This document shows, one piece after another, positions 1,269-21,030 of a stretch of 33,542 nucleotides of DNA. The translations under genes were made by a program, and so were the position numbers. The notes beneath the pieces were generated by a model. That model saw only the letters and a list, made by a program, of their open reading frames with translations, was not told the origin of the DNA and made no database searches. The stretch comes from a bacterium. GTDB lineage: Bacteria > JAMCPX01. The stretch lies in contig JAJYJX010000003.1 in NCBI GenBank assembly GCA_021789095.1, positions 1 to 33,542 on the forward strand, given 5' to 3'. Position 1 is the stretch's first letter. Each line of letters opens with the position of its first letter.

Positions 1269-2759
1269 TTATCTCAGGTTGTTTATCCTTCCCGCAGTTT
1301 TCCATTTTGAGCCATTGGCTTCATTGTGAGGTGCTTCGATAGTTTTATGATTACTCATTTCGGACATGCCGCTTACTATTGCCGCCATGATCCATAACTG
1401 TGATGCGTCCTTTGTAAAGCCGTCCATCTCCTGTTCAAGGAACCCTGTATTTATGTCTCCCTTTATGAATCGTTCGTGTTTGAACAGCCACCTGTAAAGC
1501 GGTATGGCTGTTGAAATACCTACAATCCTGTATTCGGACAGCGCCCTTTGCATGCGCGCAATTGTTTCCTGCCTGTTTTTGCCGTGGGCCTGGAGCTTGG
1601 CTATCAGGGAATCATACCAGCCGGGCACCTCAAAGCCTTCGTAAACGCCGCTGTCAATCCTTATGCCTGCTCCCTGAGGCTCCCTGAGATATGCTATCCT
1701 GCCCGGTGTCGGTGCAAAATCATTCAAGGGATCTTCTGCAACGATCCTGCACTCCATAGCACTACCTGACAGTCCTATATCAGACTGCTTGAACGCGAGC
1801 CTGTCCCCGTTTGCTATCCTTATCTGTTCTTTTACAAGATCAATGCCTGTTACAAGCTCGGTTACCGGATGTTCTACCTGAAGCCTTGTGTTCATTTCCA
1901 TGAAGAAGAGCTCACCGCGGTCATCCATGATAAATTCAATGGTGCCGGCATTGTAGTAGCCCGCTGCCTTTGCAGCGGATACTGCCATTGCGCCGACTTT
2001 TGATCTTTTGCCGGCCGTCATCACAGGCGACGGGCTTTCTTCTATAAGTTTTTGATGCTTCCTCTGGATAGAGCACTCCCTTTCATTAAGATGTATAATA
2101 TTGCCGTACTTATCGCCTAATATTTGAAATTCGATATGGCGCGGGTTTTTTATGAGTTTTTCTATGTATAAAGAGCCGTCGCCAAAAGCTGATAAAGCCT
2201 CTGAAGACGCACGTTCAAATGCAGATTCAACATCGCTTGCCTGTTCAACCAGTCTCATGCCCTTGCCGCCGCCTCCGCTTACAGCCTTCAACATGAAAGG
2301 ATAACCTATATCTTTTGCAATCTTTTTGGCATGGCGCACATCAGGTACGGGATCAACGGTTCCCGGCACAATTGTTACACCAGCGGCCTTTACAAGCCTT
2401 CGTGCATGGATCTTATCGCCCATCGCTTTTACGGATTGGGGTGATGGTCCTATGAACACAATCCCGCTGTCAGAAATTTTTTTCGCAAATTCCGTATTTT
2501 CAGCAAGAAAGCCGTACCCGGGATGGATTGCTTCTGCTTTACACGCCTTGGCAATATCAATAATCTTGTCCATGTTCAGGTAGCTTTCTGAAGGCTGGGG
2601 CATGCCAAGATAATACGCTTCATCAGCCATTCTCACATACAGGGCATTCCTGTCCGCATCCGAGTAGACAGCAACTGCCTCGATGTTCATCTCGTGGCAC
2701 GCGCGTATGATCCTTACCGCTATCTCCGATCGGTTTGCTATCAGTATTTTTTTGAACAT
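1269..2759 (-). CDS. accC: Biotin carboxylase subunit of an acyl-CoA/acetyl-CoA carboxylase
   Basis: This subunit uses ATP and bicarbonate to carboxylate biotin on a carrier protein. The 496-residue protein starts with the canonical 'FKKILIANRSEIAVRIIRA'. It has the ATP-grasp glycine loop GGGGKGMR at residues 162-169 and the catalytic/substrate block EMNTRLQVEHPVTE at 288-301. It is about 45 residues longer than a standalone E. coli AccC. The extra C-terminal segment after about residue 450 has no biotinylation motif (no MKM), so the biotin carrier must be encoded elsewhere. The neighbouring upstream gene on the same strand encodes the matching carboxyltransferase, which makes a propionyl-CoA or broad acyl-CoA carboxylase more likely than the fatty-acid AccABCD enzyme. 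A family A repeat lies in the 141-bp gap between the two genes. The gene symbol is by family; pccA-like is equally possible. Confidence 0.88.
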   Translation of the reverse strand: MFKKILIANRSEIAVRIIRACHEMNIEAVAVYSDADRNALYVRMADEAYYLGMPQPSESYLNMDKIIDIAKACKAEAIHPGYGFLAENTEFAKKISDSGIVFIGPSPQSVKAMGDKIHARRLVKAAGVTIVPGTVDPVPDVRHAKKIAKDIGYPFMLKAVSGGGGKGMRLVEQASDVESAFERASSEALSAFGDGSLYIEKLIKNPRHIEFQILGDKYGNIIHLNERECSIQRKHQKLIEESPSPVMTAGKRSKVGAMAVSAAKAAGYYNAGTIEFIMDDRGELFFMEMNTRLQVEHPVTELVTGIDLVKEQIRIANGDRLAFKQSDIGLSGSAMECRIVAEDPLNDFAPTPGRIAYLREPQGAGIRIDSGVYEGFEVPGWYDSLIAKLQAHGKNRQETIARMQRALSEYRIVGISTAIPLYRWLFKHERFIKGDINTGFLEQEMDGFTKDASQLWIMAAIVSGMSEMSNHKTIEAPHNEANGSKWKTAGRINNLR

Positions 2760-2805
2760 ATCGTTTCTCTATTATTGTGAATGCCAAACAACTGATTTAA
2801 TTTCA

Positions 2806-2873
2806 GTCATTCCGTGCTTGACACGGAATCCAGTTTTTTTCCCTTTCTGGATTCCCGCTTTCGCGGGAATGAC
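2806..2873. repeat. Family A palindromic repeat pair between carboxylase genes
   Basis: Two hairpin units face each other. The first, GTCATTCCGTGCTTGACACGG..., ends in GAATCCAG. After a short T-rich spacer the second, CTGGATTCCCGC-TTTC-GCGGGAATGAC, is its inverted partner. The same arrangement recurs throughout the window (for example 16342-16407 and 20968-21030). Because it lies inside a probable operon it may form a strong structure in the mRNA. Confidence 0.85.
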
Positions 2874-2900
2874 GAGGAAAGCATGTCTTCAATCTATGGA

Positions 2901-4451
2901 TCACAGCGGTATGTTCCCGTGTTTTTTCTTGGGATTGGTATCGCTCTTGTTTTTCAGCATGCGCAGGGCTGAAATGATCTTGAACCTTGTTTCCGAAGGC
3001 TTTATGACCTCGTCGATATACCCGAGTTCCGCTGCCTTCCACGGCGAAGCGAACTTTTCCCTGTAGTCATCTATAAGCTGGGCGCGCTTTGTTTCAGGAT
3101 CATCCGCCGAGTCTATCTCCTTCCTGAATATTATATTAACCGCACCGTCAGGGCCCATAACTGCAATCTCCGCACTCGGGTATGCATAGTTGATATCGGC
3201 CCGTATGTGCTTGCTTGACATAACGTCATAGGCACCGCCGTATGCCTTTCTTGTTATAATGGTGATCTTGGGCACGGTTGCTTCTGCAAAGGCAAAGAGC
3301 AATTTTGCACCATGCCTTATTATGCCCCCGTGCTCCTGCACGGTCCCGGGTAAGAATCCGGGCACGTCCTCAAGCGTGATCAGCGGGATGTTGAATGCAT
3401 CGCAAAACCTGACGAACCTTGCACCCTTTACTGACGCATCTATGTCCAGGGTACCTGCAAGATAAGCTGGCTGGTTTGCAACAATGCCGACCGGCATGCC
3501 GCCGTAACGCGCAAAGCCTACGACGATATTGGGCGCGTATGACTCATGCACCTCAAGGAAATACCCATCGTCAACTGTTGAAAAGATCAGCTCTTTTATA
3601 TCATACGGTTTGTTCGGCTGGTCCGGTATAAGGTTTTCAAGCTCCGGTGACAGGCGTTGTTGTGGATCGGTGGTTTCCCTGTAAGGAGGATCATCAATGT
3701 TATTTGAAGGTATAAACCCGATCAGTTCGCGTATACCTGCAAGACATTCCTCGTCATTATCGAATACAAAGTGAGCAATGCCGCTTTTCGTGGCGTGGGT
3801 CATTGCACCGCCGAGTTCTTCCTTTGTCACTTCTTCATGAGTTACCGATTTTACGACATCAGGGCCAGTTACGAACATGTAGCTCGTGCCTTTTGTCATA
3901 AAGATAAAGTCTGTTATCGCGGGTGAATAGACCGCACCGCCCGCGCATGGCCCCATGACCGCAGAGATCTGCGGAATAACGCCCGAGACAAGCACATTGC
4001 GCAAAAAAATGTCGGCATAACCTCCGAGGCTCTCGACCCCTTCCTGGATCCTCGCACCGCCGGAATCGTTCAGGCCGATCAGGGGTGCCCCGTTTTTTAA
4101 AGCAAGGTCCATGATCTTGCAGATCTTCTTTGCATAGGCTCCTGAGAGTGAGCCGCCGAACACCGTGAAGTCCTGGGAAAACACATAAACAAGCCTCCCG
4201 TCTATAGTGCCGTAGCCGGTAACAACGCCGTCGCCAAGATACTTCTGCTTGTCCATGCCGAAATCAACGGCCCTGTGAAGGACGAATTTATCGAGTTCTA
4301 CAAAACTGCCTTTGTCCAGCAGCAGATCAATGCGCTCTCTTGCAGTCAGCTTGCCGGCCTCATGCTGTTTCTTGATGCGCTCCTCGCCGCCGCCAAGTTC
4401 GGCCTCCCTGTTCATCCTTTCAAGTTCTTTTATGCGCTTTTCGTGGGACAT
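2901..4451 (-). CDS. Acyl-CoA carboxylase carboxyltransferase subunit (PccB/MmdA family)
   Basis: The protein transfers carboxyl from biotin to an acyl-CoA, most likely propionyl-CoA giving methylmalonyl-CoA, or runs the reverse reaction in a methylmalonyl-CoA decarboxylase. At 516 residues it has the standard length of the fused two-domain (crotonase-like) carboxyltransferases. Family signatures visible include '[19 protein letters not shown]' near residue 35, '[19 protein letters not shown]' near 125, the oxyanion-hole segment '[19 protein letters not shown]' near 165, and '[24 protein letters not shown]' in the C-terminal half. It lies upstream of accC on the same strand and probably shares its transcript. 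The substrate cannot be fixed from sequence alone. A biotin carrier gene and methylmalonyl-CoA mutase are not in the window. Confidence 0.92.
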
Positions 4452-4469
4452 AATTTACCTCGATCTTCT

Positions 4470-4650
4470 GTCATTCCCGTGAAAACGGGAATCCAGTTCT
4501 TTAAATGAATATATAAGAGAAAATTCAATGCTATGCAAGGAAACAGTTTAATAGTGTTATTCCTGCGGAAGCAGGAATCCAGTTTTCTCTTTTGTTTCTT
4601 ACAGAATGAAGGAACGAGAGCCTGGATTCCGCATCAAGTGCGGAACGACG
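4470..4650. repeat. Family A repeats (one single hairpin and one spaced pair)
   Basis: The 254-bp gap between the carboxyltransferase and the TPR gene holds little except repeats. 4470-4497 is a single hairpin, GTCATTCCCGTGAAAACGGG..., ending in AATCCAG. 4558-4650 is a pair, TATTCCTGCGGAAGCAGGAATCCAG ... CCTGGATTCCGCATCAAGTGCGGAACGACG, with the two halves about 45 bp apart. I see no gene and no clear terminator with a T-tract here. Confidence 0.8.
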
Positions 4651-4705
4651 GAATAAAGCCGCCCCGATTTATCAGTACGGCAGTCCCCTGAAGAAGAACA
4701 GAAAA

Positions 4706-5557
4706 TTACTCCTTAAACCTCGGTATTTGTGCAGTTACCTTGCCTGTGGAGGGGGCATACTCATAAGGCATATTACCGATAGGATCGGGCAGTTGTGCAA
4801 GAATGCCTTTTTCAACAAGTTCTGATAATGACGACGGAAATCTACGGAACCGTTTTTTGTATTCCTGAACTGCCTGATTCAGCATATCGACATTCTTTTT
4901 CTGGGTAAGAACTGCGATGTTGTTCTTCGCGGCTGATCGTATGAATTCATTGTCAGACATCTTTGCAATGGCCTCCCACATCTCAATACCCTGATCGGGT
5001 GATGCAAACTTGCCCAGTGCATACGGAGCAAAGGTCTTGTACTGACTGGGCATATCAGGCAATGTATTTGCGATGCTGAAATACTTGTAGGCGTTATTAT
5101 AATCTTTACCCATGTAATATATAAATCCAAGGCCGAATGCAGGCCTCCAATCTTTGGGATTGTTTTTCACTCCTTTATCCCCGAGCAGTATTGCATCCTT
5201 AGAATCATTTGCCCATGTTGCGAGAAAAGCAGAACCAAAGTTATATGCATTGATAAACTTCGGATCAAGGGATGTTACAATATCCAGAATGTGATAAAGA
5301 TACGGGTATGTGTTGCCCGAAATGGCATGTTGCCCTATGTATTGGATAGACCTTAACCAGAAAATATCTGCAAGCAGGTTATTATATCCGAAAGCGATGT
5401 TCTTTATGAAACTTGTTTTAGGGAAATAAAACAACTCAGGTATTGGGTTACTGTTTTCAGGTGATGTTTGATCAATGATTTTGCCAAGGGGATAGAGGGA
5501 AAAAGCGAGCATCAGGAAAATTATGGTCAGTGTAAATGTCTTAATAATACGGTTCAT
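4706..5557 (-). CDS. Membrane-anchored TPR protein of the pilin/ABC transporter set
   Basis: The 283-residue protein has one hydrophobic N-terminal segment at residues 8-26 (TLTIIFLMLAFSLYPLGKI), which acts as an anchor or uncleaved signal, so the rest should be periplasmic. The middle (about 95-200) reads as tetratricopeptide-like helical pairs: 'LDPKFINAYNFGSAFLATWAN' and 'WRPAFGLGFIYYMGKDYNNAYKYF'. The C-terminal part, 'YKKRFRRFPSSLSELVEKG' followed by 'LPDPIGNMPYEY', resembles the globular P-x-D-P-x-G-x-x-Y segment seen in GspG-type pseudopilins. TPR proteins of this kind accompany ABC-2 transporters near pilin genes in deltaproteobacteria. It could be the positional counterpart of Myxococcus PilG, which is an inference from gene order only. 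It lies downstream of the permease with a repeat-bounded GIY-YIG gene in between. Confidence 0.62.
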   Translation of the reverse strand: MNRIIKTFTLTIIFLMLAFSLYPLGKIIDQTSPENSNPIPELFYFPKTSFIKNIAFGYNNLLADIFWLRSIQYIGQHAISGNTYPYLYHILDIVTSLDPKFINAYNFGSAFLATWANDSKDAILLGDKGVKNNPKDWRPAFGLGFIYYMGKDYNNAYKYFSIANTLPDMPSQYKTFAPYALGKFASPDQGIEMWEAIAKMSDNEFIRSAAKNNIAVLTQKKNVDMLNQAVQEYKKRFRRFPSSLSELVEKGILAQLPDPIGNMPYEYAPSTGKVTAQIPRFKE

Positions 5558-5579
5558 TAAAGGTACTCCTTAATCTTTT

Positions 5580-5672
5580 CTGGATTCCCGCCTTCGCGGG
5601 AATGACAGGAAAAGGAAATTTGTCATTCCTGCCCGTGGGCTTCTCCGAAGGTATGCTTGAGCAGGAATCCAG
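5580..5672. repeat. Family A direct repeat, left flank of the GIY-YIG gene
   Basis: The 93-bp unit begins CTGGATTCCCGCCTTCGCGG, continues with GTCATTCCTGCCCGTGGGC and CCGAAGGTATGCTTGAG, and ends CAGGAATCCAG. Apart from about six substitutions and a 1-nt indel it repeats in the same orientation at 6010-6101 on the other side of the GIY-YIG gene. The second half, with its longer arm and loop, also occurs at 7154-7205 and 8933-8983. Confidence 0.85.
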
Positions 5673-5709
5673 TCTGCTTTTGTCCCGCATTTGATATAAA
5701 ATCCAGATA

Positions 5710-6000
5710 TTATTTACAAACATCATCATATAAATCTTTCCATTGAGGATTATTACTCTCAATGAGAGTCAGTTTCCATTTTCTTTGCCAATTTTTTATT
5801 TGTTTCTCTCTCATAATTGCTGCCTCTGCTGATTCATGTATCTCATACCATACAAGCTGGTGCACATTATACTTCTTGGTAAAACCGTCAACCACATTAT
5901 TTTTATGTTCATAAATACGTTTAACGAGGTCTGATGTTACGCCGGTGTACAAAGTACCATTTTGTTTACTGGCAAGTATATAAACATAGAATCTTTTCAT
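5710..6000 (-). CDS. Small GIY-YIG nuclease domain protein (UPF0213-like)
   Basis: A 96-residue protein consisting of a single GIY-YIG domain. The first motif reads 'YVYILASKQNGTLYTGVT' at residues 5-22, where 'YVY' and 'YTG' stand for GIY and YIG. Then come the Arg of 'DLVKRIYEHKN', the His of that segment, and the catalytic Glu in 'AIMREKQIKNWQRKWK', in the right order and spacing. Family members are small DNA nucleases of uncertain role, often encountered as standalone genes. No ribosome-binding site is obvious, and the gene is separated from both neighbours by family A repeats in direct orientation. It interrupts an otherwise sensible ABC permease to TPR gene order, so it looks like an insertion and not part of the operon's function. 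Whether it acts on the repeats is untested. Confidence 0.87.
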   Translation of the reverse strand: MKRFYVYILASKQNGTLYTGVTSDLVKRIYEHKNNVVDGFTKKYNVHQLVWYEIHESAEAAIMREKQIKNWQRKWKLTLIESNNPQWKDLYDDVCK

Positions 6001-6009
6001 TTATATTCT

Positions 6010-6165
6010 CTGGATTCCCGCTTTCGCGGGAATGACGGAAAAGAAAGTTTGTCATTCCTGACCGTGGGCTTCTTCGAAGGTATGCTTGAGCAGGAATCCA
6101 GTTCCTCTTTTTTGTCATTCCGTGCATATATTTTGTCTACTCCGCACTTGTGCGGAGGAATCCAG
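6010..6165. repeat. Family A direct repeat, right flank of the GIY-YIG gene, plus one extra unit
   Basis: 6010-6101 is the direct copy of 5580-5672. An additional hairpin follows at 6114-6165, starting GTCATTCCGTGCATATATTT and ending CGCACTTGTGCGGAGGAATCCAG. Together these fill the gap between the permease stop codon and the GIY-YIG start. Confidence 0.83.
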
Positions 6166-6179
6166 TCTTTTTTCTCTAT

Positions 6180-6983
6180 TCACCGCATCTCCTTCTTATT
6201 GAATACAACCGCAGACAACATCAACATGATGACAATATAAATAACCGTATAAACTACAAGTAACACAAGGTGCTGAGCAGACGGTACAATGCCGTAAATA
6301 GCAAGGTCACGCAGATTTAAATTGCTGAAGTTTGGAAGGATATAATAAATGATCTTGAGTAATGCCTTTGCTGCCTGACTGTTTACCTTATCTACCAAAG
6401 ACTTTATCGTATCAAGCCCGTTGCCGATAATGTAGACAAAGAAGGTAATGATCGATGCAACAATGGGTGATGTAAATGTGGAAAAGAATATGGAAATGGC
6501 AATCACAATGAGCATGGCAAGGTATGAGTAGACAATAGCGAGAATGATATCTCCGATAAATATCGTCCTTATTGTCCATTGGGAATAGTAGACATTTCTG
6601 TTAAAGGAAAAGAGGATCGCAAAAAAGATTATCGTCATGAATATTGTAACGACAAACACCAGAGACGCAAGCCCGAGGAACCTGCCGACCAGGTATTCGG
6701 ATCTTTTTATGGGTGTTGTAAGGATTGTATAGATGGTCTTTTGCTCTATGTCTTTGTAAATTATGGATGCACCCATGAAGATTGCTATAAGCACACCGAA
6801 GATCATGATACTTGCAAGTCCTACATCCTGTGTGATCTTTATGTATTCACCCATACTCAGTGCTGCAAGACCGTATGATGCAAACATCATGAGCAAGGCA
6901 AACAGCAGAAGCAGGTAAAGTATCCTTTCCCTTATGCCTTCTTTAAAGCCTGTCGAGGCAATGGCAAAAATCCTTTTAAACAT
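6180..6983 (-). CDS. ABC-2 type transporter permease
   Basis: The 267-residue protein has about six hydrophobic segments. The first, 'ILYLLLLFALLMMFASYGLAAL', lies near residue 21 and the last, 'LVLLVVYTVIYIVIMLMLSAVVF', near 240. Between segments two and three is 'IIYKDIEQKTIYTILTTPIKRSEYLVGRFLG', the coupling-helix sequence typical of ABC-2 permeases ('E...gTi..lLt.P.sr...l.gK..g'). It should pair with the ATPase encoded upstream at 7297-8409 and form an exporter in the inner membrane. The cargo is not predictable. By position beside a pilin gene it resembles PilI of Myxococcus, which is needed for pilus biogenesis. The 313-bp gap to the ATPase gene is unusual for an ABC pair and is filled with repeats. 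Confidence 0.87.
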   Translation of the reverse strand: MFKRIFAIASTGFKEGIRERILYLLLLFALLMMFASYGLAALSMGEYIKITQDVGLASIMIFGVLIAIFMGASIIYKDIEQKTIYTILTTPIKRSEYLVGRFLGLASLVFVVTIFMTIIFFAILFSFNRNVYYSQWTIRTIFIGDIILAIVYSYLAMLIVIAISIFFSTFTSPIVASIITFFVYIIGNGLDTIKSLVDKVNSQAAKALLKIIYYILPNFSNLNLRDLAIYGIVPSAQHLVLLVVYTVIYIVIMLMLSAVVFNKKEMR

Positions 6984-6996
6984 TAATTCTCCTTTC

Positions 6997-7285
6997 CGTT
7001 AATCCGCGCTTGATGCGGAATCCAGTTTCTTTCTGTGTCATTCCGTGCACAGACACGGAATCCAGTTCTTCTCTTCTCTGGATTCCCGCCTTCGCGGGAA
7101 TGACACACAAAAAATATTTGCTTGCGTTAGCATAATACATCACATTGGTTCTCCGTCATTCCTGCCCGTGGACATCTTCAGAGATATTCTTGAACAGGAA
7201 ACCAGTTTCCATCTGTCATTCTGAGCGGCGACGAAGACGCCACGAAGAATCTAAATCTTAGACTCTTCGTTTCACTCAGAGAGAC
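6997..7285. repeat. Repeat cluster between ATPase and permease genes (families A and C)
   Basis: The gap from 6984 to 7296 contains no gene. 6997-7104 holds three family A hairpins: one with 'CGCTTGATGCGGAATCCAG', one with 'CCGTGCACAGACACGG', and an inverted partner starting CTGGATTCCCGCC. 7154-7205 is a longer-arm family A unit with GTCATTCCTGCCCGTGG at one end and a diverged GAACAGGAAACCAG at the other. 7215-7285 is a family C unit, GTCATTCTGAGCGGCGACG ... GACTCTTCGTTTCACTCAGAG. Confidence 0.8.
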
Positions 7286-7296
7286 AAATAAAATCA

Positions 7297-8409
7297 TTAG
7301 GCTTGCTCCTTTATCATCTTCGATATCAGCGTTTCCAGAGACTGCCTTACCGGCTCTACCTTTATAATACTGAACCCGTTTTTGATAAGCTCTGATAAAA
7401 TGGTATTTGTTTTTTCCATATCATTCACGTGAAATATGCATTGTTCATTGTTGCAGGTAATGTTCTTTACAAGTTGTTTTATGTTATTACTAATTTTCTC
7501 CTCTCCCCTTGTGGGAGAGGTAGGGTGAGGGGTAAAAGCAGTTATATTCACGCTTGTTGCACCTGTATCAACAAGCTCGCTTACAGTGCCGATCTTAATG
7601 ATCTTGCCTGTTCTGATAACAGCTACGTGGTCGCACAGCTCCTCGGCATCCGGAATAATATGTGAGCTGAAGAATATGGTCTTGCCCTGCTTTCTGAGCT
7701 TACGCAGGATCTCCTTGAATTCCGCCCTGCCGATCGGATCAAGCCCGCTCATAGGCTCGTCGAGGATCAGAAGCTCCGGATCATTGATAAGCGCCTGTGC
7801 CATGCCGAGTCTTTGCAGCATACCCTTGGAAAAGGCGCGAAGCCGGGTATGAATTGCATCTATCAACCCGACAAGCTCAAGCTTTTCTTTTATAAGAGCA
7901 TCAACAGTTCCCCTCACCTTATTCCTCTCCCCAGAGGGGAGAGGGGGGGGTGAGGGGGTATCTTCTTCTCCTTGCCCAAGCCCAGCCTGGGTACCTCCCT
8001 CCTCTGTCATTCCGTGCTTGACACGGAATCCAGATTGTTTTTCAGAGAGAGAGGTAGGATGAGGGGAGTCCTTCATATTATACAGCCTTGCATAAAGCTT
8101 CATAATTTCAAACGCAGTAAGATAAGAATAAAAATTGGGCGTTTCCGGCAGATAGCCTATATTATTTTTCACATCAGTATCATCAAGGTCTTTATCAAAA
8201 AGCTTTATACTGCCGGAATCATACTTCAGAAGGCCAAGGATGGATTTGATAAGGGTTGTCTTGCCAGCGCCATTCGGGCCAAGGAACCCGAAGATCTCCG
8301 CCTTTTTTACGGAAAGATCCACATCCTTCAACGCCTCATACCTGTGTACAAACCCGCGCGGGTAGGTTTTGTTCAATCCTTTTATTTGTATAACTGCCTG
8401 TTCACTCAT
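7297..8409 (-). CDS. ABC transporter ATP-binding protein with two in-frame repeat insertions
   Basis: This is the motor subunit of an ABC-2 exporter. Visible motifs are Walker A GPNGAGKTT (44-52), a Q-loop-like stretch 'IGYLPETPNFY' (84-94), signature FSKGMLQR (193-200), Walker B LLILDEP (213-219), D-loop and switch His in 'FFSSH' (247-251). The protein is 370 residues long, whereas such ATPases are usually about 300-310. The excess comes from two foreign segments. Residues about 114-168 (HPTSLSEKQSGFRVKHGMTE ... PSPPPLPSGERNKVRGT) lie between the Q-loop and the signature and are the translation of family A and B repeats. Residues about 292-305 (FTPHPTSPTRGEEK) translate a second family B copy. 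Both keep the frame. It may be the counterpart of Myxococcus PilH by position. All catalytic motifs are intact, so function may be kept; this is not proven. Confidence 0.9.
   Translation of the reverse strand: MSEQAVIQIKGLNKTYPRGFVHRYEALKDVDLSVKKAEIFGFLGPNGAGKTTLIKSILGLLKYDSGSIKLFDKDLDDTDVKNNIGYLPETPNFYSYLTAFEIMKLYARLYNMKDSPHPTSLSEKQSGFRVKHGMTEEGGTQAGLGQGEEDTPSPPPLPSGERNKVRGTVDALIKEKLELVGLIDAIHTRLRAFSKGMLQRLGMAQALINDPELLILDEPMSGLDPIGRAEFKEILRKLRKQGKTIFFSSHIIPDAEELCDHVAVIRTGKIIKIGTVSELVDTGATSVNITAFTPHPTSPTRGEEKISNNIKQLVKNITCNNEQCIFHVNDMEKTNTILSELIKNGFSIIKVEPVRQSLETLISKMIKEQA
7498..7535. repeat. Family B palindrome inside the ATPase gene (C-terminal insertion)
   Basis: The stem CTCTCCC/GGGAGAG with loop CTTGT is followed by GTAGGGTGAGGGG. 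It encodes the 'PHPTSPTRGEE' stretch of the ATPase on the minus strand. Related sequence occurs at 7911-7957 and 8047-8071. Confidence 0.78.
7906..8071. repeat. Composite family A + B insertion inside the ATPase gene
   Basis: About 165 bp, a multiple of three. It contains a family B palindrome (7911-7957; CCTCTCCCC-aga-GGGGAGAGG flanked by CCCTCACC and GGTGAGGG), a stretch with CCCAGCCTGGG, a family A hairpin at 8006-8033 (GTCATTCCGTGCTTGACACGG...), and a half family B unit at 8047-8071 (GAGAGAGGTAGGATGAGGGG). It looks like a nested insertion of A between B sequences. Confidence 0.78.
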
Positions 8410-8474
8410 AATTGGTCCCTTTCTTAATTATTTAATACAAACGAAATAAATATGTTTGTATAACCTCAAAGATC

Positions 8475-8546
8475 GTCATTCCCGTGAAAACGGGAATCCA
8501 GTTTTATACATGAAAGATCTGGATTCCGTATCAAGTACGGAATGAC
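8475..8546. repeat. Family A repeat pair upstream of the ATPase gene
   Basis: GTCATTCCCGTGAAAACGGG is followed by AATCCAG, a spacer, then CTGGATTCCGTATCAAGTACGG with AATGAC. It lies in the 5' region of the ABC ATPase gene, about 65 bp before its start codon. Confidence 0.83.
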
Positions 8547-8696
8547 AATTTAATGTTACATTCTTAATCTGCACAAGCAGTGCCCTTTTCTGCTTGTCTT
8601 TACCGATGAGCTCTTTCCTCGTAAAGGTAGTAGACATTTTTAATGTGCCGCTACTCTTTTAATATCTATTTTTATTCCCCTTGTCATATCATCCAA

Positions 8697-8747
8697 TTAA
8701 TTATATTCCGCATTCTCTAAAGCTTTTTGAATATAATCAACCAACAT
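8697..8747 (-). pseudogene. Possible remnant of a HicB-like antitoxin gene
   Basis: On the minus strand the sequence AAGGAG, nine bases before an ATG, opens a short frame MLVDYIQKALENAEYN that then stops. The start resembles the N-terminus of HicB-family antitoxins ('M..DYIq.al.kAeYe'). The frame ends after 16 codons and no HicB-like continuation is evident in the other frames beyond a few residues. A second short frame with an ATG at 8637 (MSTTFTRKELIGKDKQKRALL...) runs into family A repeat sequence. The whole 8550-8800 stretch may be eroded accessory DNA. The resemblance rests on 16 residues, so this is a weak call. Confidence 0.27.
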
Positions 8748-8851
8748 AGTCCCTTTCTCCTTTGCCAACCTCATACTTATATATATTATAATTCATTAAA
8801 TGACTCAAACAAAGCCATTGGCCCAAATGAAAACGAAACACTCCATTCTTC

Positions 8852-9056
8852 GTCATTCCGTGCATAGACACAGAATTCAGTCTCTTTCTTCTGGATTCCG
8901 TATCAAGTACGGAATGACGGAAGAAGCCGTTCGTCATTCCTACCGGTGGGCATCTTCGAAGGTATGCTTGAACTGGAATCCAGCTTTTCTCTGTCATTCC
9001 GAACTTGTTCCGGAATCTCAGGTTTTTTTAGACCCTGAAACGAGTTCAGGGTGACA
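8852..9056. repeat. Family A repeat cluster downstream of the pilin gene
   Basis: Three units lie in series. 8852-8918 is a standard pair (GTCATTCCGTGCATAGACAC ... CTGGATTCCGTATCAAGTACGG). 8933-8983 is a longer-arm unit (GTCATTCCTACCGGTGGGC ... TGCTTGAACTGGAATCCAG), related to the repeats around the GIY-YIG gene. 8993-9056 is a variant pair (GTCATTCCGAACTTGTTCCGG ... CCCTGAAACGAGTTCAGGG). The full gap 8410-9127 otherwise holds only the eroded stretch and the terminator. Confidence 0.8.
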
Positions 9057-9068
9057 GAAATAACGCCA

Positions 9069-9098
9069 TAAAAAAAGCCCCGCCGAAGGCGGGGCTTT
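9069..9098 (-). terminator. Intrinsic terminator of the pilin gene
   Basis: Read on the minus strand, AAAGCCCCGCC-ttc-GGCGGGGCTTT is a perfect 11-bp stem with a 3-base loop, followed by a T-run. It starts about 30 bp after the pilin stop codon. It should end the pilin transcript and insulate the ABC genes downstream. Confidence 0.88.
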
Positions 9099-9127
9099 GA
9101 ACATTCATATTCATCATTTTCAAACTG

Positions 9128-9712
9128 TTAGTTGTGATCAATAAAAAACGCTGTGTTTGATGCCTGGATTACGTTACCACCAACCTGTATTATAGTATCG
9201 CTACATCCACCCAATGCCCATGCAGTAAATGGTGCAGCGGTGTTTGTGATATATTGAATTCTACCAATTACAGCCCCTGGACAAGGTTGTCCGTTAGCTG
9301 GAACCACCGCAGGAAACCACGCAGCAATACTAACAGGGGGGTCGCTTGTTACTACTGCGGGTAAATCTGCCACCGCAGATGGTATACCAATTGGAGGCGC
9401 TGTAGGACAACGAGTTATAGCACCACTGTTGCTGTAATATCCAGGATTATATGGATCATTGGGGGGGGTGTTGTTTGGTAACCTGCAAGTATATTGCCCA
9501 TCAGTAGTAATATCTACAGGATATGTGCCTCCTGTACCTACCGCATAATCTTCAAGTGCAAGCTGGAATGTATGCATAGCACCTTTTACAGATGCCTCTC
9601 TTGCCCTTCTCTGCATTGCGATGAAGTTTGGGATGGCGATTGCCGCGAGTATACCGATGATCACAACGACGACCATCAACTCGATCAACGTAAAACCTTT
9701 TTGTCCTTTCAT
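9128..9712 (-). CDS. pilA: Type IV major-pilin-like protein (prepilin with class III signal peptide)
   Basis: The protein is a prepilin subunit that is cleaved by prepilin peptidase and polymerised into a pilus or pseudopilus. The leader MKGQKG is followed by FTLIELMVVVVIIGILAAIA, with cleavage expected after Gly6 and Glu at mature position 5. At 194 residues it has a globular domain of normal pilin size. The C-terminal part contains 'PPNDPYNPGYY', resembling GspG/PilA loops, and three cysteines (in 'QYTCRL', 'ITRCPT' and 'GGCSDT'; a fourth in 'GQPCPG'). A strong ribosome-binding site, AAGGAGG, precedes the ATG, and a strong terminator follows, both consistent with a highly expressed major subunit. 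The next genes on the strand are an ABC ATPase and permease, as in Myxococcus pilA-pilGHI. A truncated paralogue lies at 11544. It might instead be a pseudopilin, but the length and expression signals favour PilA. Confidence 0.85.
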   Translation of the reverse strand: MKGQKGFTLIELMVVVVIIGILAAIAIPNFIAMQRRAREASVKGAMHTFQLALEDYAVGTGGTYPVDITTDGQYTCRLPNNTPPNDPYNPGYYSNSGAITRCPTAPPIGIPSAVADLPAVVTSDPPVSIAAWFPAVVPANGQPCPGAVIGRIQYITNTAAPFTAWALGGCSDTIIQVGGNVIQASNTAFFIDHN

Positions 9713-12662: not shown

Positions 12663-12950
12663 AAACCCCGTTGGAAAGCTTGCAACAGTCGCGAACTGCC
12701 CTGTACCAAAAGCGCAGGGCGTCATGTAAGCCGAAAACACCGGGTCGTCATTCCGTGCTTGATACGGAATCCAGCGGCTTTCAAAATTACTAGATTCCCG
12801 CTTTCGCGGGAATGACAATTATAAAAATTTGCCGATTCATCCCTGTACCAAGAGCGCAGGAAGTTCTTGGCTGTCATTCAGTTTCAAGCTCGTCTATCTT
12901 CTTCGGGATTATCCTTTATGCAGGTAAAACCGAAAGACTTTTTAACGGAG
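12663..12950. repeat. Repeat-rich gap: family E arm(s), family A pair and a 20-bp direct repeat
   Basis: 12584-12941 holds no gene. AAACCCCGTTGGAAAGC at 12663-12679 is a family E arm, and a diverged opposite arm, CTTTTTAACGGAGTAAA, may lie at 12935-12951, overlapping the stop of the CPBP gene. Between them are a family A pair at 12747-12816 and two direct copies of CCCTGTACCAAGAGCGCAGG (with one substitution) near 12700 and 12842. If both E arms belong together this is an element invaded by another. Confidence 0.5.
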
Positions 12951-16341: not shown

Positions 16342-16407
16342 GTCATTCCGCACTTGATGCGGAATCCAGGTTTTTGTCTTCTGGATTCCCGTTTTCACGG
16401 GAATGAC
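16342..16407. repeat. Family A repeat pair between topA and mutS
   Basis: GTCATTCCGCACTTGATGCGG with AATCCAG, then CTGGATTCCCGTTTTCACGG with GAATGAC. The two hairpins are inverted partners 10 bp apart. Confidence 0.85.
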
Positions 16408-20967: not shown

Positions 20968-21030
20968 GTCATTCCGCACTTGATGCGGAATCCAGTATTT
21001 TTTCTGGATTCCTGCTTTCGCAGGAATGAC
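20968..21030. repeat. Family A repeat pair between xerC and hslV
   Basis: GTCATTCCGCACTTGATGCGG with AATCCAG, a short spacer, then CTGGATTCCTGCTTTCGCAGG with AATGAC. It makes the hslV reading frame appear 22 codons longer in the ORF track. Confidence 0.85.

Follow-up and report, generated by a model that had tools for sequence, protein, structure and literature searches.

A standalone GIY-YIG nuclease gene, probably of the Ssn type and packed between copies of its own target hairpin, a CGTC-type REP, with a proposed model for their spread

Why does a small nuclease gene stand between two near-identical palindromic units, in the junction of a permease gene and a TPR gene, and is the repeat-nuclease-repeat arrangement a mobile unit? 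The locus that raises this question lies in the window, by which we mean the whole analysed stretch of 33,542 nucleotides, and it is built of the following features:

4706-5557, minus strand: TPR protein, downstream neighbour (annotation and same-family comparison)
5580-5672, no strand: left composite unit, 93 bp, 87/93 columns identical to 6010-6101
5580-5606, minus strand: 27-nt CGTC-type REP hairpin, outer downstream partner
5622-5672, plus strand: 51-nt hairpin repeat, the first after the stop codon, 37 bp away, CCAG end facing the gene
5710-6000, minus strand: standalone GIY-YIG nuclease gene, Ssn-like, 96 aa (ORF, Pfam, homolog alignment and AlphaFold)
6010-6101, no strand: right composite unit, 92 bp (aligned with 5580-5672)
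6010-6036, minus strand: CGTC-type REP hairpin of 27 nt with an 8-bp stem and a 4-nt loop, CCAG end facing the gene, 9 bp upstream of the start codon
6051-6101, plus strand: 51-nt hairpin repeat, upstream of the 27-nt hairpin and its outer partner
6180-6983, minus strand: ABC-2 permease, upstream neighbour; the permease-TPR junction is the occupied site

The two units differ by five substitutions and one 1-nt gap and lie in the same orientation, as a sequence-only reading of the window had stated, and the nuclease gene is, as it also stated, the only plausible gene between them. That reading called the units direct repeats, which is correct at the 93-bp level; the hairpins that touch the gene form an inverted pair, and this is the key architecture. 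Both units are composites of a 27-nt and a 51-nt hairpin in opposite orientation. If R denotes GTC..CCAG and F its reverse complement, the order along the gene is 51(F)-27(R)-gene-51(F)-27(R), and the gene-proximal hairpins are mutually inverted (GTC..CCAG-gene-CTGG..GAC) with their CCAG ends inward. An Rfam search of positions 2500-9300 gave no match.

The 96-aa protein matches the GIY-YIG profile of Pfam (PF01541, E 1.2e-17) and its motif residues Y7, Y18, R28, E65 and N84 are invariant in an alignment of 40 homologs, that is, it has both the profile match and the conserved Tyr, Tyr, Arg, Glu and Asn of the GIY-YIG superfamily. Its AlphaFold model has a mean pLDDT of 95.7, and the nearest solved folds are those of UPF0213, Slx1 and UvrC. 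With UPF0213, the UvrC N-domain and Slx1 it shares the GIY-YIG fold and the catalytic residues, it is distant from them in sequence, and we know of no repeat bracket around any of them. The homolog in N. gonorrhoeae is 61% identical to the window protein, and the genome encodes no other short standalone GIY-YIG of the kind, its two further matches lying in frames of 299 and 646 aa, of which the latter has the size of UvrC; dRS3-type repeats surround its gene, and we take it to be, probably, the ssDNA nuclease Ssn. In Neisseria, Ssn cleaves single-stranded DNA where a repeated sequence occurs and has a modulating effect on transformation, and the Ssn family of site-specific single-stranded GIY-YIG nucleases was reportedly described, with the NTS repeats of Neisseria, by Chenal et al. 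in Nat Commun in 2025. The window gene resembles Ssn in being a standalone GIY-YIG in the range of about 90-110 aa, a small single-domain protein closely related to the Neisseria enzyme, and in the target-like repeat around it, which is present in 89 copies in the genome and is putatively cognate. It is therefore very probably an Ssn with cognate repeats, and cleavage of ssDNA is predicted for it. As a member of its enzyme family the nuclease is ordinary. Phage records contained only distant matches to it (at most 40% identity) and PHROGs and PADLOC held no matching family, on which grounds a phage origin of the cassette was rejected.

The repeats form a family of their own. Hairpins of the pattern GTCATTCC-N(4-34)-GGAATCCAG occur 89 times in the 2.15-Mb genome and not once in the reversed-pattern control, so they are not a product of chance; since the genome is a MAG of 203 contigs, repeat counts are lower bounds. 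The window, 1.56% of the genome, holds 20 of the 89, which agrees with the earlier remark that the palindromes are scattered over it. Folded as ssDNA, the 27-mer has a 3-nt tail, an 8-bp stem, a 4-nt loop and a 4-nt tail (z = -6.2), and the 28-mers have, by inspection, an 8-bp stem and a 5-nt loop. Neighbouring repeats at most 100 bp apart are mostly arranged head-to-head (28 of 33 pairs), with tags outside, CCAG inside and a spacing of 6-57 bp, and these gene-less doublets share the layout and orientation of the gene bracket. In the window they include:

2806-2873, no strand: dispersed head-to-head doublet of 28-nt and 27-nt hairpins, CCAG ends inward
7037-7104, no strand: dispersed head-to-head doublet in the gap that separates the permease and ATPase genes
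8475-8546, no strand: dispersed head-to-head doublet
8891-8983, no strand: unit of 28-nt and 51-nt hairpins, of the same design as the gene-flanking 93-bp units
12747-12816, no strand: dispersed head-to-head doublet with one mismatch in the 27-nt member
16342-16407, no strand: dispersed head-to-head doublet
20968-21030, no strand: dispersed head-to-head doublet

This design is that of the CGTC REPs, which have a (C/T)GTC tag, a stem of 8-9 bp starting with AT, a loop of 4-5 nt and a CCA tail, occur mostly as head-to-head dimers, often heterodimers, in at least five phyla, and count the dRS3 of Neisseria among their members (PMC3733652). The 2013 survey that described them reports no dedicated transposase and leaves their mode of spread open (PMC3733652). 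The window repeats agree in tag, AT at the stem start, 8-bp stem, loop of 4 or 5 nt and CCA tail, the fold being GTC-ATTCCCGC-GAAA-GCGGGAAT-CCAG, and head-to-head dimers, often heterodimers, likewise predominate among the close pairs. They differ from the described CGTC REPs in that a nuclease family is bracketed here and in the longer inner part of the 51-nt form.

Two further repeat arrangements were seen in the genome. Amid the GTCATTCC repeats, window positions 7216-7285 hold a repeat of the GTCATTCTGAGCG..GAAGAATC type, which belongs to another stem class, and an enzyme of that class was not found in the window's genome. Elsewhere a gene-less unit of about 120 bp is present in two copies at unrelated sites (G000:C39:1271-1387 and G000:C190:13067-13187); it consists of a 27-nt hairpin, a similar core of 39-43 nt and a 51-nt hairpin, so that its two ends are those of the gene cassette. 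We considered these units as internal-deletion derivatives of the cassette and rejected this, as by eye their cores match each other and not the gene ends.

The tight bracketing of the nuclease gene by inverted hairpins is general across many phyla. Scanning named genomes yielded 80 homologs (57-77% identical), with Nitrospirae, Proteobacteria, Omnitrophota, Patescibacteria, Chloroflexi and Planctomycetes among the groups represented. Half-sites reach densities of 7.8 and 6.4 per kb in the 200 bp on either side of the gene and drop to about 0.2 per kb beyond 1 kb. Hairpins following the rule GTC-AT..AT-CCAG stood on both flanks at 51 of 73 loci and at 6 of 843 control positions, so that the absence of enrichment beside this nuclease family, named by the sequence-only reading as an observation that would speak against it, was not what we found; nor did the related genomes show the nuclease at this locus without repeats, the second such observation. 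A comparison in which no motif was assumed gave the same picture, the two 300-bp flanks sharing a word of at least 13 bases at 80% of loci as against 2% of control windows from the same loci. Where both flanks were positive, 48 of 64 loci (a set that also takes in loci from other searches) had the R-gene-F orientation of the window, and the median gap from hairpin to start codon was 17 bp. At most of the loci lacking GTCATTCC the design recurs in variant form, the stem beginning with ATACC, ATCCC, ATTGC, ATTCT, ATCTCC or ATTCGCC.

Gene and repeats also occur together at the level of genomes. In a set of 241 genomes, nearly all from outside the window's family and sharing ancestry with one another, at least five GTCATTCC repeats were present in 18 of 38 genomes with the gene and in 14 of 203 without it (Fisher p 7e-9; 3e-8 with the window's family left out). 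Several genomes are rich in repeats with no gene detected, for example G026 with 47 and G107 with 29, therefore repeats persist, or were moved, without the nuclease. The repeat type tracks the enzyme clade. Gly-Ser at residues 71-72 was present in 6 of 7 enzymes with GTCATTGC (ATTGC) repeats and in 0 of 84 others, Trp being usual at position 71; because most Gly-Ser enzymes fall in one clade of the tree (SH-aLRT 95), this match amounts to about one evolutionary event and not many. Both residues lie, in the AlphaFold model, in the turn between helices 58-70 and 73-83 and may serve as a lead to a candidate recognition element.

Whether the cassette is a unit that can be transferred was judged from the limits of homology between cassettes at different loci, which lie at or just outside the repeats. 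In two copies within one genome (L005 and L019) the DNA match is confined to the stretch from -35 to +22 about the gene; similarly matched are L059 and L075 from -47 to +31, L032 and L033 from different organisms from -135 to +52, and the window matches L032 from -40 to 0. Two to three gene copies per genome occur. The permease-TPR junction itself tells a similar story. That the gene interrupts this gene order, as had been claimed, is supported by three genomes of the same family (G002, G003 and G005), in which the two genes abut or share a few bases (ATGA) and neither an inserted gene nor a repeat lies between them. In G001 and G008, also of the same family, the junction holds a GIY-YIG gene 57% identical to that of the window, from another clade of the tree and flanked by GTCATTGC..GCAATC repeats, and in G004, another same-family genome, where the contig ends before the TPR gene, it holds a DUF559 nuclease flanked by CCCCTCTTATTAGAGGGG (CCCCTC) repeats. 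As these occupants differ from each other and from that of the window, one junction has seemingly taken in a different nuclease-plus-repeat cassette on at least three occasions. We rejected an ancestral junction gene that diverged together with its repeats, the window gene and those of G001 and G008 being in different clades.

The rhizobial homologs show variation of the repeats at a second site. In Sinorhizobium the gap between hflX and mazG holds the gene with doublets ..TCATTCCTGTG..CACAGGAATCCAG, which are RIME1-like; the number of doublets varies between strains, K101 has the gene with fewer repeat blocks, and the gain or loss of blocks is near-tandem. Doublets of this kind flank or lie near the homologs of Sinorhizobium and Rhizobium replicons (L182, L183 and L186), whose repeat-block number differs between strains, and they are distinguished from the window repeats by longer stems, spacers and tandem blocks. 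The same site in Shinella, a distant relative of Sinorhizobium, has neither gene nor repeat, and a strain-level empty site was sought in the rhizobial replicons and none was found. A single repeat left behind at an empty site, for which the sequence-only reading had suggested a check, was seen neither in Shinella nor at the three same-family junctions, all compared at genus-level distance, so at that distance it would seem that the repeats come in together with the gene or later than it. The proposal of a mobile repeat-nuclease-repeat unit consequently stands in part: homology limits and the exchange at the junction speak for a transferable unit, and the nuclease is a candidate for the agent that moves or copies the repeats. 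The cassette carries no transposase gene.

Several related nuclease loci were met with during these searches. DUF559 genes are bracketed by palindromic repeats with CCCC..GGGG arms on both flanks at 14 of 31 loci and 1 of 110 control positions, the loci including L142/L180 (G004:C305) and L132-L209. Distant GIY-YIG genes at L011, L027, L031 (G009), L028 and L023 (G017) are directly flanked by an intact tRNA gene on one side and a degenerate, tRNA-like copy on the other; the tRNAs are those for Pro, Asp, Ala and Gly, with an intact tRNA-Ser upstream at L023, and at L011, L027 and L028 the last codons of the gene and its stop form the 5' half of the tRNA. These five are possible tRNA-gene-invading nuclease elements; none of the 94 loci of the comparison set had a tRNA within 150 bp. 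The window's genome holds a second, distant GIY-YIG gene at L002 (G000:C172:343-555), whose gene region is 92% identical in DNA over 611 bp to that of L026 (G001:C20); CCCCGTTAGAGAT stands just before the L002 gene and an inverted copy of the same word near its other end. On the cyanobacterial Planktothrix plasmid p1 (L185) a homolog has the gene of an MmeI-type restriction enzyme on one side and that of a DISARM helicase on the other.

We consider it probable that an Ssn-type nuclease is encoded here in tight contact with its own target on either side, GTC-AT(stem)..(stem)AT-CCAG, a hairpin of the CGTC type; that the hairpin is the target of the nuclease is very likely, and that the nuclease drives the spread of the repeats is a tentative part, which we put forward as possible. 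The nuclease would bind and cut the hairpin repeat as single-stranded DNA, in replication gaps or in DNA taken up by transformation, and cuts at both members of the inverted pair would release a strand made up of repeat, gene and repeat. GIY-YIG nucleases hydrolyse DNA and do not join it, hence integration would need host enzymes, and repair by annealing or homologous recombination could place the freed strand beside other copies or at new sites. The dispersed gene-less doublets would be its non-autonomous forms and would stand to it as REPINs do to RAYT transposases. The cassette could also be moved without the nuclease, by homologous recombination between repeats. We suggest, with the same caution as for the spread itself, that the standalone GIY-YIG (Ssn) might be the autonomous partner that the CGTC REP superfamily has been lacking and the doublets its REPIN-like, non-autonomous offspring, and that DUF559 with CCCC..GGGG might be a second, unrelated nuclease in the same arrangement competing for the same sites.

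The cassette resembles REPIN-RAYT (PMC3116915) in its small inverted doublets dispersed between genes and in a gene flanked by the same repeats, but the partner here is a GIY-YIG nuclease and not an IS200/IS605-like HUH transposase with its tyrosine, and the repeat tag is another one; it may work in a like manner without being a member. No paper in the literature searched treats GIY-YIG together with either dRS3 or 'repetitive extragenic palindromic'. What the sequence data would add to Ssn/NTS is the bracket with its orientation, the identity of the bracket with the gene-less doublet, the transferable unit, the cassette exchange at one site and the match with CGTC REPs.

The alternative that survives best, and one about as plausible as the driving of spread by the nuclease, is that the gene has the role of Ssn only, cutting incoming ssDNA at the repeats and modulating natural transformation, so that gene and repeats are joined by linkage or regulation and nothing is mobile. 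It draws on the identity of about 61% to the gonococcal standalone GIY-YIG, on the cleavage of ssDNA and modulation of transformation by Neisseria Ssn, and on ComEC, which was found in the window's genome, as in most control genomes, and is weak support for a role in transformation; it leaves unexplained the homology that ends near the repeats at unrelated loci, the two to three copies per genome, the replacement of cassettes at one junction and the identical architecture of the gene-less doublets. An unlikely explanation is passive shuttling, in which recombination or transformation between REP copies moves any trapped gene and the nuclease is a passenger: recombination would be permitted by the 93% identical 93-bp units on both sides, and repeat blocks are indeed gained and lost near-tandemly in Sinorhizobium, but random passengers would vary, whereas in these nuclease-centred loci the bracketed gene is repeatedly of the GIY-YIG family and its inverted repeats are matched to its clade. 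Mobilisation of repeats and cassette by another transposase, for example a RAYT/Y1 enzyme, we regard as improbable; RAYTs are thought to mobilise GTAG REPs (PMC3116915, PMC3733652) and the window's genome has three Y1_Tnp matches, but these are on other contigs (C43, C143 and C189), a search for transposase genes flanked by CGTC repeats found none (PMC3733652), and the gene that is bracketed is a nuclease. Least probable of all is a homing-type process, a double-strand cut at a single repeat followed by gene conversion of the cassette into repeat-bearing sites, since, although GIY-YIG is a homing-endonuclease fold and further repeats lie just beyond the bracket at several loci, it predicts that the cassette splits its target and that one uncut repeat stands at the empty site, whereas each flank has complete hairpins and the empty junctions, examined at genus-level distance, have no repeat. 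The likeness to homing endonucleases drawn by the sequence-only reading is not upheld, these enzymes not being classical homing endonucleases in an intron or inside their target gene.

Returning to a nuclease probably packed with its own target hairpins, the repeat-nuclease unit offers the spread of CGTC REPs a candidate mechanism that can be tested directly, and a test per genome follows: where the nuclease lies between repeats, the letters of the repeats should match the nuclease. Each cassette would be a pair of an enzyme and its probable recognition sequence, of use for sequence-specific cutting of ssDNA. Should the proposed explanation be true, dispersed repeats can be sustained as a family by an ssDNA nuclease that hydrolyses DNA, as REPINs are by RAYT transposases.
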